DNA from: Gammaproteobacteria bacterium
GTDB taxonomy: Bacteria > Pseudomonadota > Gammaproteobacteria > Steroidobacterales > Steroidobacteraceae
Length of the DNA: 44,371 bases
Reading direction: 5' to 3'
Assembly: GCA_027307325.1 (NCBI GenBank)
Contig: DAHUXE010000141.1
Location: forward strand, 1 to 44,371
The notes beneath the pieces were generated by a model that was not told the origin of the DNA, ran no database searches, and saw only the letters and a program-made list of their open reading frames with translations. A program made the position numbers and the translations under genes. Below are positions 5,161 to 9,626 of this stretch, piece after piece; within the stretch, counting starts at the first letter, position 1, and each line of letters opens with the position of its first letter.

Positions 5161-6126
5161 ATGGACAAGAAAGCGATCGACCGGCGCTGGCTGCCACTCA
5201 ACGCACTGCGCGCCTTCGAAGGGGTGGCCAAGCACGGCAGCTTCACCGCGGCGGCGAATGCGCTGCTCATCTCACAGAGCGCGCTGTCGCGTCACGTGAT
5301 CGCGCTCGAGCGGCTCACCGGGGTACAGCTCTTCGAGAGGCGTCCGCACGCGCTGACCCTCACCAGGGCGGGCCAGCATCTGCTGCCGGCGGTCGTCAAG
5401 TCCTTCGACCGGCTCGAGTACGCGCTCGATGACATCCGCAACGAGGGTGCCCCGGTGCAGCGCACGCTGCGCGTGCAGATGCCGCCGAGCTTCGCCGTGC
5501 AGCTCGCAGTCCCGATCCTGCGCGACTTTCGCCGCACCTGCGCCGACGTCGACATCGATCTCATCAGTCCCTATGGCGTGGGTCCCCCGTTGGGCGATAT
5601 CGACGTCGCGGTGGTGTACTCCAGGCCCGCGGTGAGTGATCTGGTCACCGACCTGCTGTGGTCCGTGCGCCAGTCGGTCGTCTGTCATCCCGCCATCGCC
5701 GCCACACACGCCGGCAAGGGGCTCGCAGCCTTCATCCAGGCGAACGAGCTGATCCACGTCAGGATCGCCGACGCGCCCCGCCACCATTTCTGGAAGGAAT
5801 TCGTCCGGCAGAATGGCCTCGCCGGCGTCGATGTCGAGCGCGGCATGGTGTTCGATACCGCCGTGCTCGCGGCGCAGTACGCCCTCGGGGGACAGGGGAT
5901 CGCGGTGCTCGACACCAATCTGTTCGCCGAGGAGATCCGTACGGGCAGGCTGGTGAAGCCATTCGACGCCACGCTCGACGACGGCTACGGCTACTACCTG
6001 ATCACGCAGCCCGAGGGTCTGTCGGACACGGCGATCGCGCTGTTCCGCTCCTGGCTGATCGGGCGCTTCGGCAGCGGCGCCGCCGCGGCGGTGCCGCCGG
6101 TGCAGCTCGCCGTGTCGAACGAATGA
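5161..6126 (+). CDS. LysR-family transcriptional regulator (GcvA-like)
   Basis: A 321-residue LysR-type regulator. The winged helix-turn-helix is at about residues 13-72 (LNALRAFEGVAKHGSFTAAA, then SQSALSRHVIALE), and a periplasmic-binding-protein-like effector domain follows from about 95. The N-terminal pattern WLPLNALRAFE and the IAVLD motif resemble the GcvA/AmpR branch. GGAGAG ends 6 nt before the ATG. The next gene, the DAO-GcvT oxidoreductase, starts 16 bp after its stop, so both are probably on one transcript. Location suggests control of the demethylation genes, with the repeats at 5017-5102 as candidate autoregulatory sites. The effector is unknown. Confidence 0.9.
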   Translation: MDKKAIDRRWLPLNALRAFEGVAKHGSFTAAANALLISQSALSRHVIALERLTGVQLFERRPHALTLTRAGQHLLPAVVKSFDRLEYALDDIRNEGAPVQRTLRVQMPPSFAVQLAVPILRDFRRTCADVDIDLISPYGVGPPLGDIDVAVVYSRPAVSDLVTDLLWSVRQSVVCHPAIAATHAGKGLAAFIQANELIHVRIADAPRHHFWKEFVRQNGLAGVDVERGMVFDTAVLAAQYALGGQGIAVLDTNLFAEEIRTGRLVKPFDATLDDGYGYYLITQPEGLSDTAIALFRSWLIGRFGSGAAAAVPPVQLAVSNE

Positions 6127-6142
6127 AGCGGCCGGAGGTCTC

Positions 6143-8554
6143 GTGAAGAACGACGTGCGGGTGGTAGTGATCGGCGGCGGGGTGGTCGGCACCAGCGTGC
6201 TCTACCACCTGACCAAGGCGGGTTGGAAGGACGTGCTGCTGATCGAGCGGGGCGAGCTGACCTGTGGCTCGACCTGGCACGCGGCCGGCGGCATGCACAC
6301 CATCAACGGCGACCCCAACGTCGCCAAGCTGCAGCAGTACACCATCAACCTGTACCAGGAGATCGAGCGGATCTCGGGGCAATCCTGCGGCATGCACGTC
6401 ACCGGCGGCATCATGCTGGCCGGCACCCGCGAGCGGCTCGACTGGCTGAAGATGGCCAAGGCGCGCGGCCGCTATCTCGGCATGGAGCTCGAGATCATCT
6501 CGGTCGACGAGGCGGCACGGCTCTTCCCGCTCATGAACAAGGAGCACTTCGTCGGCGCGCTCTACGACCCGATCGAGGGTCACGTCGATCCTTACGGCGT
6601 CACGCATGCCTCTGCCAAGGCGGCGCAGATCGGCGGCGCGCAGCTGGTGCGCCATACGCGCGTCACGGACCTGAAGGCCCGCGCCGACGGCAGCTGGGAC
6701 GTCATCACGGATCACGGCAACGTGCACGCCGAGCACGTGGTGAACGCGGGCGGGCTGTGGGCCCGCGAAGTCGGCCGCATGGTCGGAATCGAGCTGCCGA
6801 TTCTGGCGATGGAGCATCAGTACCTCATCACCGAGGACATTCCGGCCCTCAAGGGGCAGAAGGAGCAGCTGCACTGCATCGACTTCGAGGGCGAGATCTA
6901 CACGCGCCAGGAGCGCGGCGGCATGCTGCTCGGCACCTACGAGCGTGCCGGCGTGCCGTGGTCGCCGCGCGAGACGCCCTGGGACTTCACGCAGAGCCTG
7001 CTGCCGAACGACCTCGAGCGTATCGCGCCGAGTCTGGAAGTGGGCTTCGAGCATTTTCCGGCCCTCGGGCAGGCCGGCATCCGCAAGGTGGTCAACGGTC
7101 CCTTCACCTTCGCCCCGGACGGCAATCCCCTGGTCGGCCCGATCCGCGGCCTGCGCAACTTCTGGGTCGCATGCGGCGTCATGGCCGGCTTCAGCCAGGG
7201 CGGCGGGGTCGGGCTGGCGCTGTCGCACTGGATGGTGGACGGCGATCCGGGCGCGGACATCTGGGGCATGGACGTTGCGCGTTACGGTGACTGGGCCACG
7301 CTCGCCTACACCAACGCCAAGGTGCGCGAGAACTACTCACGGCGCTTTCGCATCCGCTTCCCCAACGAGGAGCTGACCGCGGCGCGGCCGCTGCGCACCA
7401 CGCCGATCTACGAGCGGCTCGAGGCCAACCACGCGGTGTTCGGCGACTATTGCGGGCTCGAGCACGCGCTGTGGTTCGCGCCGAGCGCCGCGGACGCGAG
7501 CGAGGTCGTCACCTTCCACCGCTCGAACGCGCATGCCCACGTCGGCGCCGAATGTCGCGCGGTACGCGAGTCGGTCGGATTGCTGGAGATCTCCAACTAC
7601 GGCAAGTTCGACGTGACCGGGGCCGGCGCCGAGGAATGGCTGTCGCACGTGATGGCGAACCGGGTGCCGAAGGTCGGCCGGATCGCCCTGACGCCGATGC
7701 TGAACGAGCGCGGCAAGCTGATCGGCGACTTCACCATGGCGCGCCTGGCGCAGGACCGGGTGTTTCTGGTCTGCACCTGGGCGGCCGAGGATTACTACCG
7801 GCGCTGGTTCGAGCGCCATGCGCCGCCCGCCGGCGTCGCGGTACGCCCATGCGCGATGCAGTACGTGGGGTTATCGGTGGCAGGGCCGCGCGCGCGCGCC
7901 CTGCTGCAGAGCGTGACGCACGAAGACCTCTCCACGAAGGCGTTTCCGTTCCTCAGCTTCCGCCGCATGGATGTCGGGATGATCCCGGCGCTGGTAGGGC
8001 GCATCAGCTTCACCGGGGACCTCGGCTACGAGATCTGGGTGACGAGCGAGTATCAGCGTGCGCTCTATGACCTGCTGGTCGGAGCGGGCGCCGAGCACGA
8101 CCTGAAGCTCCTCGGCGGCCGGGCGCTCAACGCGCTGCGGCTCGAGAAGAGCTTCGGCACCTGGGCGCGCGAGTATCGCCCGATCTATGGACCCCATGAG
8201 GCCGGACTCGGCCGCTTCGTCGATCTCAGCAAGGATAGCTTCGTGGGTCGCGCCGCGGCGCTGGAGGAAGAGGAGAGCGGCGGCAAGCTGCGGCTGCTCA
8301 CCTTCACGGTCGAAGCGCGTGACGCGGACGCCTCGGGCGACGAGCCGATCTGGCACGACGGCAGGGTGATCGGTTGGGTGACGTCGGGCGGCTACGGCCA
8401 CAGCGTGCAACGCTCGCTGGCACTTGGCTACGTGCCGAAGGAATACGCGGGCCTGGCGAGCGGATTCGAGATCGAGATTCTCGGCGAGCGCTGCCAGGCG
8501 AAGCCTCAGGCGACCGCGGCGTTCGATCCCGACGGCACCCGCATGCGCGGCTGA
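6143..8554 (+). CDS. FAD-dependent oxidoreductase fused to GcvT domain (dimethylglycine/sarcosine dehydrogenase-like)
   Basis: An 803-residue two-domain enzyme. Residues 1-370 are a DAO-type FAD domain, with the nucleotide-binding IGGGVVG at 10-16 and STWHAAG at 43-49; the His there (His46) matches the residue that holds FAD covalently in dimethylglycine and sarcosine dehydrogenases. A linker domain follows, then a GcvT fold from about 440 to the end, keeping the folate-site Asp (GDFTM, codon 7727-7729). The reaction expected is oxidative N-demethylation with the formaldehyde unit passed to tetrahydrofolate. It lies 16 bp after the LysR gene and is a paralogue of the truncated gene at the left edge. 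The substrate (dimethylglycine, sarcosine or another N-methyl amine) cannot be read from sequence. Confidence 0.92.
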   Translation: MKNDVRVVVIGGGVVGTSVLYHLTKAGWKDVLLIERGELTCGSTWHAAGGMHTINGDPNVAKLQQYTINLYQEIERISGQSCGMHVTGGIMLAGTRERLDWLKMAKARGRYLGMELEIISVDEAARLFPLMNKEHFVGALYDPIEGHVDPYGVTHASAKAAQIGGAQLVRHTRVTDLKARADGSWDVITDHGNVHAEHVVNAGGLWAREVGRMVGIELPILAMEHQYLITEDIPALKGQKEQLHCIDFEGEIYTRQERGGMLLGTYERAGVPWSPRETPWDFTQSLLPNDLERIAPSLEVGFEHFPALGQAGIRKVVNGPFTFAPDGNPLVGPIRGLRNFWVACGVMAGFSQGGGVGLALSHWMVDGDPGADIWGMDVARYGDWATLAYTNAKVRENYSRRFRIRFPNEELTAARPLRTTPIYERLEANHAVFGDYCGLEHALWFAPSAADASEVVTFHRSNAHAHVGAECRAVRESVGLLEISNYGKFDVTGAGAEEWLSHVMANRVPKVGRIALTPMLNERGKLIGDFTMARLAQDRVFLVCTWAAEDYYRRWFERHAPPAGVAVRPCAMQYVGLSVAGPRARALLQSVTHEDLSTKAFPFLSFRRMDVGMIPALVGRISFTGDLGYEIWVTSEYQRALYDLLVGAGAEHDLKLLGGRALNALRLEKSFGTWAREYRPIYGPHEAGLGRFVDLSKDSFVGRAAALEEEESGGKLRLLTFTVEARDADASGDEPIWHDGRVIGWVTSGGYGHSVQRSLALGYVPKEYAGLASGFEIEILGERCQAKPQATAAFDPDGTRMRG

Positions 8555-8563
8555 TCGATTCAG

Positions 8564-9028
8564 CTACGCTATGAACATCGCCAGGGCGCTGGCGGTGAGC
8601 GCCGGCTTGCTCTCGCCCTCGATCTCCATCGTGTTCTCGGTCGTCACGAGATAGCGCCCGCCGCCTTTATCCTCGACGCTGGAGATGCGGATGTGGTTGC
8701 GAACGCGTTTGCCCGAGCGCACCGGCGCCACGAAGCGCACCTTCTCGAGCCCGTAGTTCACCACCGACTTCGGCGTGATGCGCCCGAGCAGCACCTCGAA
8801 GCCCGTCGGCGCGAGCAGCGACAGCGTGAGAAACCCGTGGGCGATCGTGCCGCCAAACGGGCCGTCGCGCGCAGCCCGCTCGGCGTCGAGATGGATCCAC
8901 TGGTGATCGCCAGTGCAGTGAGCGAACTCGTTGATGCGGTTCTGGTCCAGGAGAATCCACGAGGAGACACCGATCTCCTCGCCGATGTACCTGGCCAGCT
9001 CTGCGACGGGCATTCGGCTCGCGGGCAT
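8564..9028 (-). CDS. MaoC-like enoyl-CoA hydratase (hot-dog fold)
   Basis: A 154-residue single hot-dog protein of the MaoC/(R)-enoyl-CoA hydratase type. The catalytic Asp/His block is present as FAHCTGDHQWIHLD, followed by the typical AARDGPFGGTIAHGFLTLSL helix. Such enzymes hydrate 2-enoyl-CoA to (R)-3-hydroxyacyl-CoA, which can feed polyhydroxyalkanoate synthesis. An upstream start at 9094 is possible, but it would place the promoter and operator bases inside the gene, and the family normally begins near MPASRMPVAEL; I therefore choose the ATG at 9028. It is divergent from a phasin gene, which supports a PHA role. Its 3' end lies 9 bp from the convergent oxidoreductase stop, so a shared function with that gene is not implied. 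Confidence 0.85.
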   Translation of the reverse strand: MPASRMPVAELARYIGEEIGVSSWILLDQNRINEFAHCTGDHQWIHLDAERAARDGPFGGTIAHGFLTLSLLAPTGFEVLLGRITPKSVVNYGLEKVRFVAPVRSGKRVRNHIRISSVEDKGGGRYLVTTENTMEIEGESKPALTASALAMFIA

Positions 9029-9069
9029 GTCCGATCTTACCAAGGGCGCGCGACTTGCTCGCCCGCAGT

Positions 9070-9097
9070 AATATAACCAGTATGCATTGCACAATAA
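9070..9097 (-). promoter_or_regulatory. Predicted promoter of the MaoC-like gene with operator in the spacer
   Basis: Read leftward, TTATTG (9097-9092), a 16-nt spacer and TATATT (9075-9070) form a plausible sigma-70 promoter about 45 bp before the start at 9028. The dyad TGC-ATT-GCA (9083-9091) lies wholly within the spacer, a classic position for repression. Confidence 0.45.
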
Positions 9098-9197
9098 CTC
9101 TGCGTTATCTGGGCGCCTTTGATCTATAAAACAGCATATAGATCATCTAGATATATTCAGTTCACCTTGGCGATCATAAATATATTGCAATGCATAC
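9080..9197. promoter_or_regulatory. Nested inverted repeats and twin TGC-N3-GCA operators of the PHA divergon
   Basis: A 12-bp perfect inverted repeat, GTATGCATTGCA (9080-9091) and TGCAATGCATAC (9186-9197), flanks an AT-rich island unlike the surrounding DNA. Each arm holds TGC-N3-GCA, which resembles the TGC-rich dyads I recall for the PHA repressor PhaR. The arms lie almost symmetrically, 55 bp from the MaoC start and 58 bp from the phasin start. A second perfect dyad sits inside: TGATCTATA (9120-9128) and TATAGATCA (9137-9145). Confidence 0.6.
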
Positions 9198-9212
9198 CAA
9201 AATTCGTAGAAT
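9185..9212 (+). promoter_or_regulatory. Predicted phasin promoter overlapping an operator
   Basis: TTGCAA (9185-9190), a 16-nt spacer and TAGAAT (9207-9212) make a fair sigma-70 promoter 40 bp before the phasin ATG. The operator arm TGCAATGCA (9186-9194) covers the -35 element, so a bound repressor would block RNA polymerase. Confidence 0.5.
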
Positions 9213-9251
9213 GGCATGTATCAACCGCAGACTGCTCCCCGGGGAGTTGCC

Positions 9252-9626
9252 ATGACCGACCGTACCTACGACCTCAACGCCTGGCTCGAGACCTACAAGG
9301 ACACCGTCACCTCCTTCAGCAGGGCTCAGCAGGATGGCTTCAGGGCGCTGGAGCGCTTCGCCCGTTTCAACTACGCCGTCGCCGGCGACTACCTCGATGC
9401 GGGCCTCGCGCACGCCAAGGCGACCGTGACTGCGCGCGCCGCGGTCGGCGCTCAAGCGGTCGCCGACCTGCTCGCGAAGCAGGCGGAGCTCGGCAACCAG
9501 CTGAGCGAGAAGCTCCGCGCCCGCGCGCAGGAATTCTCCAGCCTGGCTTCCGAGGTGCAGGAATCGGTCGGGAGCTTCGCGGCCGACGCCGCAACACGCG
9601 CCGCCGGTACGAAGAAGGCGGCCTGA
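9252..9626 (+). CDS. Phasin-family PHA granule-associated protein
   Basis: A 124-residue, Ala-rich, almost entirely helical protein typical of phasins, which coat polyhydroxyalkanoate granules and control their size. The N-terminal part (NAWLETYKDTVTSFSRAQQDG) and the amphipathic helices through about residue 100 match the phasin pattern; the tail GTKKAA is basic. I chose ATG 9252, preceded by GGGGAG at a good distance; a longer frame from 9216 would run back over the promoter region. A strong terminator follows, so the gene is probably monocistronic. No PHA synthase or repressor gene is in the window. Phasin-like proteins also occur in strains that make no PHA, so the role rests partly on the neighbouring hydratase. 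Confidence 0.85.
   Translation: MTDRTYDLNAWLETYKDTVTSFSRAQQDGFRALERFARFNYAVAGDYLDAGLAHAKATVTARAAVGAQAVADLLAKQAELGNQLSEKLRARAQEFSSLASEVQESVGSFAADAATRAAGTKKAA

Follow-up and report, generated by a model that had tools for sequence, protein, structure and literature searches.

In the window analyzed here, by which we mean the whole stretch of 44,371 nucleotides, a gene for a MaoC-like dehydratase (PF01575; 8564..9028, minus strand, with a second in-frame ATG at 9013-9011) and a phasin gene (PF09361, Phasin_2, 124 aa; 9252..9626, plus strand) point away from a common gap that contains two copies of one palindromic site. This arrangement raises the question of which regulator binds the two sites and whether they serve both genes or chiefly one of them. 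The preliminary description of this locus had reported a perfect 12-bp inverted repeat with one TGC-N3-GCA in each arm, and the repeat was present as claimed, with GTATGCATTGCA at 9080-9091 and its reverse complement TGCAATGCATAC at 9186-9197; the arms can be extended to 17 nt at 88% complementarity. The left arm holds the candidate distal, or auxiliary, operator TGCATTGCA (9083..9091, minus strand), 103 bp upstream of the candidate proximal operator TGCAATGCA in the right arm (9186..9194, plus strand), and both match the palindrome YGCRNYGCR as well as TGC-N3-GCA. The distances given for them, 55 bp to the maoC ATG (9028-9026, minus strand) and 58 bp to the phasin ATG (9252), were correct. 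The placement of the right-arm site over the rightward -35 was borne out by a consensus scan, which identified the phasin promoter TTGCAA-16-TAGAAT (9185..9212, plus strand), with its -35 hexamer TTGCAA overlapped by the site. Elements similar to this promoter were recognized by eye in relatives.

When 9032-9251 was shuffled 3000 times by dinucleotides, 6 shuffles contained a perfect 12-bp inverted repeat and 17 contained two TGC-N3-GCA sites. The 11-mer TATGCATTGCA occurs exactly only at the two arm positions in the whole 2.98-Mb, 199-contig assembly. TGC-N3-GCA alone is common, with 1685 occurrences in the genome and 22 in the window, so that the short motif by itself means little and the case rests on position and conservation. 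For the same reason, a genome-wide regulon search with bare TGC-N3-GCA was abandoned as useless on its own, and relaxing the 11-mer to two or fewer mismatches gave 68 forward and 57 reverse matches against 41 and 64 in the control, which is little excess. Between the arms, a 9-bp dyad (TGATCTATA/TATAGATCA, 9120-9128 and 9137-9145) exists as previously described; a functional role for it did not hold up, given that 64 of 3000 shuffles produce such a dyad and that L036, L037, and L038, the closest relatives in the comparison, contain no dyad of even 8 bp at this position. We therefore dropped it as a third operator and consider it probably incidental.

The palindrome points to PhaR, the regulator that the preliminary description had proposed with caution. 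According to the portions of the literature available to us, TGC-N3-GCA-type palindromes likewise occur at the phasin promoters (phaP1) of Ralstonia eutropha, Bradyrhizobium diazoefficiens, Sinorhizobium meliloti, and, for the homolog PhbF, Herbaspirillum seropedicae. The motifs given there are YTKNTGCRNYGCANMAR for Ralstonia PhaR (PMC12849132), TGCRNYGCASMA for Bradyrhizobium PhaR (PMC6201568), a YGCRNYGCR core with AT-rich arms for Sinorhizobium PhaR (PMC12542648), and TG[N]TGC[N]3GCAA for the tetrameric PhbF of Herbaspirillum (PMC3206438); PhaR of Paracoccus denitrificans is likewise described as tetrameric in print, in the text accessible to us. Within the genus, a longer form of the motif, TTGCANTGCATACAA, from which each window arm differs by a single mismatch, was detected with 0-1 mismatch in 25 of 58 genomes (33 places), compared with one match in the control. 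Its distribution follows that of the PHB_acc_N (PhaR) genes: exact matches were found in 14 of 18 genomes with two such genes, in 1 of the 8 that have a single one, and in 1 of the 32 that lack them (17/18, 3/8, and 5/32, respectively, when one mismatch is allowed). The contrast between genomes with two PHB_acc_N genes and all others (14/18 vs 2/40) yields a Fisher p of 3e-8, a value that is uncorrected for relatedness.

Conservation was assessed at the phasin promoters themselves. In a first sample of 18 phasin loci from named genomes, all 18 carry TGC-N3-GCA 63-78 bp before the ATG, in 14 cases inside TTGCANTGCATACA, and 13 have a second strict TGC-N3-GCA 89-126 bp further upstream. The set was then enlarged with 60 relatives, 296 genomes of the order, 58 genomes of the genus (motif), 217 genomes of the family, and 40 additional stretches; after removal of duplicates, and with 21 order-level matches listed left out, it comprised 101 distinct phasin genes. 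Ninety-eight of them have TGC-N3-GCA between 30 and 145 bp upstream of the ATG; the other three, namely the second gene of a tandem pair in L085, and L095 and L164, have sites only further up. With the proximal site defined as the one nearest -70, a second strict site lies 80-150 bp upstream of it in 60 of the 98 promoters, whereas 4.0 are expected from an order-1 Markov model of the same windows, and five other windows contain one in only 0-5 of 95-98 promoters. When the published PhaR consensus YGCRNYGCR is accepted for the second site, the count rises to 83 of 98 (15 lack it), whereas four neighbouring windows give 7-11 of 97-98. The arms are thus conserved at phasin promoters, and the check on relatives that the preliminary description had called for left its assignment of the sites standing.

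Some promoters are built differently. In 20 of 98 promoters, a further site lies downstream, 26-29 bp from the first, instead of or beside the upstream one (7 have both), and 25 have neither. In L093, L094, L097, L098, L100, L158-L160, L162, L165, L182, and L183, this second site stands 26 bp downstream of the first and replaces or joins one about 120-135 bp upstream. In L179, L182, and L183, a maoC-like gene precedes the phasin gene in the same direction, and three TGC-N3-GCA sites stand before the phasin ATG. A plasmid search for phasin homologues returned no match.

We sorted the 98 promoters by upstream gene through protein comparison, for which the MaoC of the window and an SDR protein served as probes. 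The reading closest to the preliminary description, in which the distal site is chiefly the maoC operator, the proximal site the phasin operator, and PhaR plainly co-represses both without interaction between the sites, draws on the near-symmetric 55 and 58 bp to the two starts and on the strict pair present in 10 of 11 maoC-divergent loci. The pair is, however, also retained in 26 of 34 promoters that follow an SDR gene in tandem and in 24 of 53 others, and with the YGCRNYGCR definition the SDR-tandem promoters have it without exception (34/34), compared with 9/11 maoC-divergent and 40/53 other promoters. Since the SDR gene is co-directional with the phasin gene, the distal site there cannot be controlling a divergently oriented promoter of that gene, and the pair, being kept with a co-directional upstream gene, belongs to the phasin promoter. 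The claim that the twin geometry serves two divergent genes is accordingly not supported: judged from sequence comparison, the pair goes with the phasin promoter, and the window employs it in a divergent setting. The distal site is probably auxiliary to phasin, and plain co-repression from two separate operators appears unlikely.

The maoC side points the same way. The leftward promoter whose spacer was said to hold the distal site was not recovered by the minus-strand consensus scan of the gap, which returned only TTGGTA-16-TATGAT (9200-9173), and TATATT, the likely -10 of that promoter, is found 40 bp or less from the distal site in only 2 of 13 loci (the window and L038, with the pairless L163 counted as a miss), so this part of the description was not upheld. 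A different leftward-strand element, TTGNTAAGAT, which we take to be an extended -10, is found in 9 of 13 loci in which maoC is divergent or 1.1 kb away and in none of the 85 other phasin promoters; it sits closer to maoC, well away from the distal site, which is a further point against plain co-repression. The window copy, TTGGTAAGAT (9034..9043, minus strand), leaves 5 bp between its end and the maoC ATG. Four loci (the window, L036, L037, and L038) have an ATG 5-6 bp after TTGNTAAGAT, suggesting that maoC may be transcribed as a leaderless mRNA from this putative -10. This would place the distal operator about 55-63 bp ahead of the probable maoC start, where bound PhaR might repress or activate, and maoC may therefore be co-regulated as a by-product of the operator's position. 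A reading in which PhaR represses phasin but activates maoC, or leaves it unaffected, makes use of this activator-like position and of the activation of R. eutropha phaP3 by PhaR, with predicted sites about 70 and 200 bp upstream (available part of PMC12849132). The leftward -10 on which it depends is itself predicted from sequence, and we regard this reading as improbable, slightly more so than plain co-repression. Further to the left, at 5161-8554, the window encodes a LysR-type regulator followed by a fused FAD oxidoreductase/aminomethyltransferase (DAO, GCV_T), a fusion that presumably resembles enzymes of dimethylglycine or sarcosine catabolism.

The distance between the sites sets these promoters apart from the closest known PhaR-controlled phasin promoters. 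In the accessible parts of the respective papers, two sites around the -35 are stated for R. eutropha, B. diazoefficiens, and S. meliloti: those of S. meliloti phaP1 are 18 bp apart (PMC12542648), those of B. diazoefficiens lie 6 bp on either side of the -35 (PMC6201568), and those of R. eutropha phaP1 are located upstream of the -35 and around the start site (PMC12849132), whereas the second site in the window is 103 bp upstream of the first. Across the collection, spacings are mostly 101-127 bp and fall into clusters of 101-104, 111-116, and 120-127 bp (near 102, 113, and 125), unlike the close-set sites of those three promoters. A Rayleigh statistic for a 10.5-bp period was reached in 0 of 5000 trials with 6-bp jitter (all 60 promoters); after thinning, the values were 0.0098 (44 sequences, 80% identity), 0.049 (21, 60%), and 0.53 (15, 50%), and the best-fitting period of 11.6-12.7 bp is longer than the helical turn of 10.5 bp. 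As proof of looping, helical phasing was hence rejected; it is suggestive and confounded by relatedness.

Looping over about 100 bp, as the preliminary description had suggested, is nevertheless plausible, and given the spacings together with the IHF-like element of relatives described below we would put its chances at about even. PhaR-mediated looping has been proposed for R. eutropha phaP1 and phaP3, which likewise have distant extra PhaR sites, in the form of a dimer-dimer loop modelled on LacI and AraC; these extra sites fall within coding regions or, at the sigma-N-like phaP3 promoter, about 70 and 200 bp ahead of the start, and, in the part of the paper available, the proposal comes without cross-species conservation, a spacing rule, or an IHF-like element (PMC12849132). 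A literature search combining PhaR, DNA looping, and phasin yielded no phasin paper by title among the matches listed. The nearest worked-out parallel among the systems compared is the gal repressosome, which shares the two distant operators. In Escherichia coli gal, the available text describes operators 113 bp, or 11 turns, apart, HU at the apex of the loop formed with GalR, and dependence on helical phase (PMC4693257). The gal loop encloses the promoters, whereas the putative loop here lies upstream of the phasin -35, and gal uses HU, whereas the relatives have an IHF-like site. As a repressor, GalR is presumably unrelated to PhaR.

This IHF-like element was identified with WATCAANNNNTTR, which we take to be the IHF consensus. 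Of 50 gaps bounded by strict sites at 95-135 bp from each other, 6 contain an exact match and 33 a match with at most one mismatch, compared with 0.5 and 9.55 in dinucleotide shuffles, and the reversed pattern matches in 0 and 10, respectively. All 300 permuted patterns stay below 33; the best of them, WRTCAANNNNTTA, is nearly the same motif (7 exact, 30 at most one mismatch). At 60% protein-identity thinning the element is present in 9 of 15 gaps, and 100 permuted patterns average 3.35 and go up to 9, so that one or more permuted patterns equal it at this level. Among the 98 promoters, the matches keep preferred positions: measured upstream from the proximal site, 33 of 50 on the plus strand lie at 54-57 or 43-45 bp and 13 of 31 on the minus strand at 66-69 bp. 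In promoters with a plus-strand match, the phasing of the total spacing gives 0.0003, 0.003, and 0.003 (42, 32, and 16 sequences), and that of the distance from the IHF-like element to the proximal site 0.12 at the 16-sequence level; promoters with a minus-strand match give 0.022, 0.047, and 0.157 (12, 11, and 8 sequences). The element is also present, at one mismatch or less, in 24 of 38 promoters that lack a strict pair, a count made without shuffle control, and we thus rejected the notion that it is special to strict pairs; some of these 38 promoters have a degenerate distal site. Both IHF subunits are encoded in the genome of the window (NCBIfam equivalogs).

The preliminary description had not included IHF, and it is these additions from relatives, an IHF-like element between the operators together with clustered spacings, that hint at a gal-like loop. 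A part for IHF in phasin control of the relatives seems to us a possibility somewhat short of an even chance. In the window itself, IHF is not supported: the best match to WATCAANNNNTTR anywhere in the gap has three mismatches, and no IHF-like site there occupies the loop centre as a bending protein does in gal. A degenerate IHF-like position at 9141..9153 (plus strand; three mismatches, judged by eye) corresponds to that of relatives, in that L102 and L103 have their match 50 and 49 bp from the distal site, the same distance as in the window. IHF is thus unlikely to act at this locus. The search for literature on phasin, integration host factor, and polyhydroxyalkanoate (PHA) led to PMC11332829, in which, as far as the text was available, the mention is confined to the reference list.

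How well PhaR fits this particular genome depends on which PhaR it has, because the PHB_acc_N gene copies within the genus are different paralogues, short and long. The short form (108-118 aa) was read in the genome of the window and in 11 other genomes of the genus (L187-L197). Here it has 112 aa (L005:1354-1692, minus strand), contains PF07879 and PF05233, and scores 132.3 bits against TIGR01848 (cut-off 109.45); it adjoins a pnp-like open reading frame identified by eye. In genome G153, the short form is kept and PF07167, phasin, and the motif have no match. The long form was read in 11 genomes outside the genus (154-190 aa), and within the genus (163-180 aa) it stands upstream of an SDR-type phasin in 13 of 14 stretches; in G126, G269, G311, and G336, the coordinates place phaR, phasin, and a PF07167 synthase in one row. 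The phaR expected by the preliminary description is therefore present in this genome as the short paralogue, which passes the NCBIfam PhaR model, and the long form was not found in the assembly. Its related expectation, that the motif would recur at other PHA gene promoters, found support in relatives, where 21 of the 24 long phaR genes read have TGC-N3-GCA in the 250 bp upstream (8/11 outside the genus and 13/13 within it; L066, L067, and L200 lack it). In the genome of the window, where the check covered the short phaR and the exact 11-mer, no such recurrence was seen: short phaR genes have such a site in 2 of 12 cases, the own copy has none over the same distance, and the exact 11-mer is confined to the maoC-phasin gap. 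Before some long phaR genes, two TGC-N3-GCA sites are 133 bp (L199, L201, and L204) or 122 bp (L244 and L248) apart, so that in these five genomes a distant pair may also govern phaR itself; the 133-bp spacing is off the phase of the phasin pairs.

These observations bear on two further readings. If the long PhaR and a class I synthase have been lost, the sites may be relics that are decaying or used otherwise by the short PhaR. In line with this, only the short PhaR was found, PF07167 (present in 19 of 28 genomes checked) has no match in the 97.9% complete assembly, and the IHF-like element is degenerate in the window. Yet both arms still fit the motif of the relatives with one mismatch, the genome has one match to a class III-like PHA synthase (TIGR01836, 367.6 against a cut-off of 365.3, thus borderline at 2.3 bits above), and the relative G028, which has the same divergent arrangement, possesses both PhaR paralogues and PF07167 synthases. 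The phaR-SDR-phaP-phaC cluster of the relatives, not found in the 199-contig draft, was lost or is unassembled, and such a draft may miss it. We consider this reading rather improbable. That some other regulator recognizing a similar palindrome occupies the pair is more improbable still: PhaR binding is a prediction for this family, which leaves some room for it, but several published PhaR sites match the motif, and the motif co-occurs with PhaR genes and stands before phaR itself.

The match to published motifs, the conservation at phasin promoters, the co-occurrence with two PHB_acc_N genes, and the protein in this genome that passes the NCBIfam PhaR model all sustain the original suggestion of a PhaR-like repressor. 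PhaR is the best-supported ligand, and the sites in the window and throughout the group are very likely PhaR operators, as predicted from these comparisons. The assignment is well supported for the group; given only a short PhaR, no PF07167 match, and a borderline class III-like synthase, it is less certain for this assembly.

We therefore favour, with some reserve, the reading that PhaR binds both operators and that the two together switch the phasin promoter. As long as PHA is scarce, PhaR on the proximal operator would cover the -35 and block phasin transcription, and PhaR on the distal auxiliary operator would contact it, so that about 100 bp would be looped and repression strengthened. 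Upon PHA formation, PhaR would move to the granule and the phasin gene would open. In many relatives, the IHF-like element between the operators, which is degenerate in the window, may bend the loop. A more ambitious version, which we offer only tentatively, would have a PhaR-IHF-PhaR looped complex hold the phasin gene off throughout the group, with the operators whole helical turns apart and nascent PHA granules pulling PhaR off; the divergent locus of the window would then be a derivative whose auxiliary operator was recruited for a second gene and whose IHF site decayed.

To conclude, the pair of sites that first appeared to be the property of two genes sharing a gap is better understood as a property of the phasin promoter. 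PhaR ties bioplastic granules to phasin expression, and the distant auxiliary operator, conserved across the family and accompanied in many members by an IHF-like element, makes the looping proposal directly testable and suggests a possibly tighter natural phasin switch.
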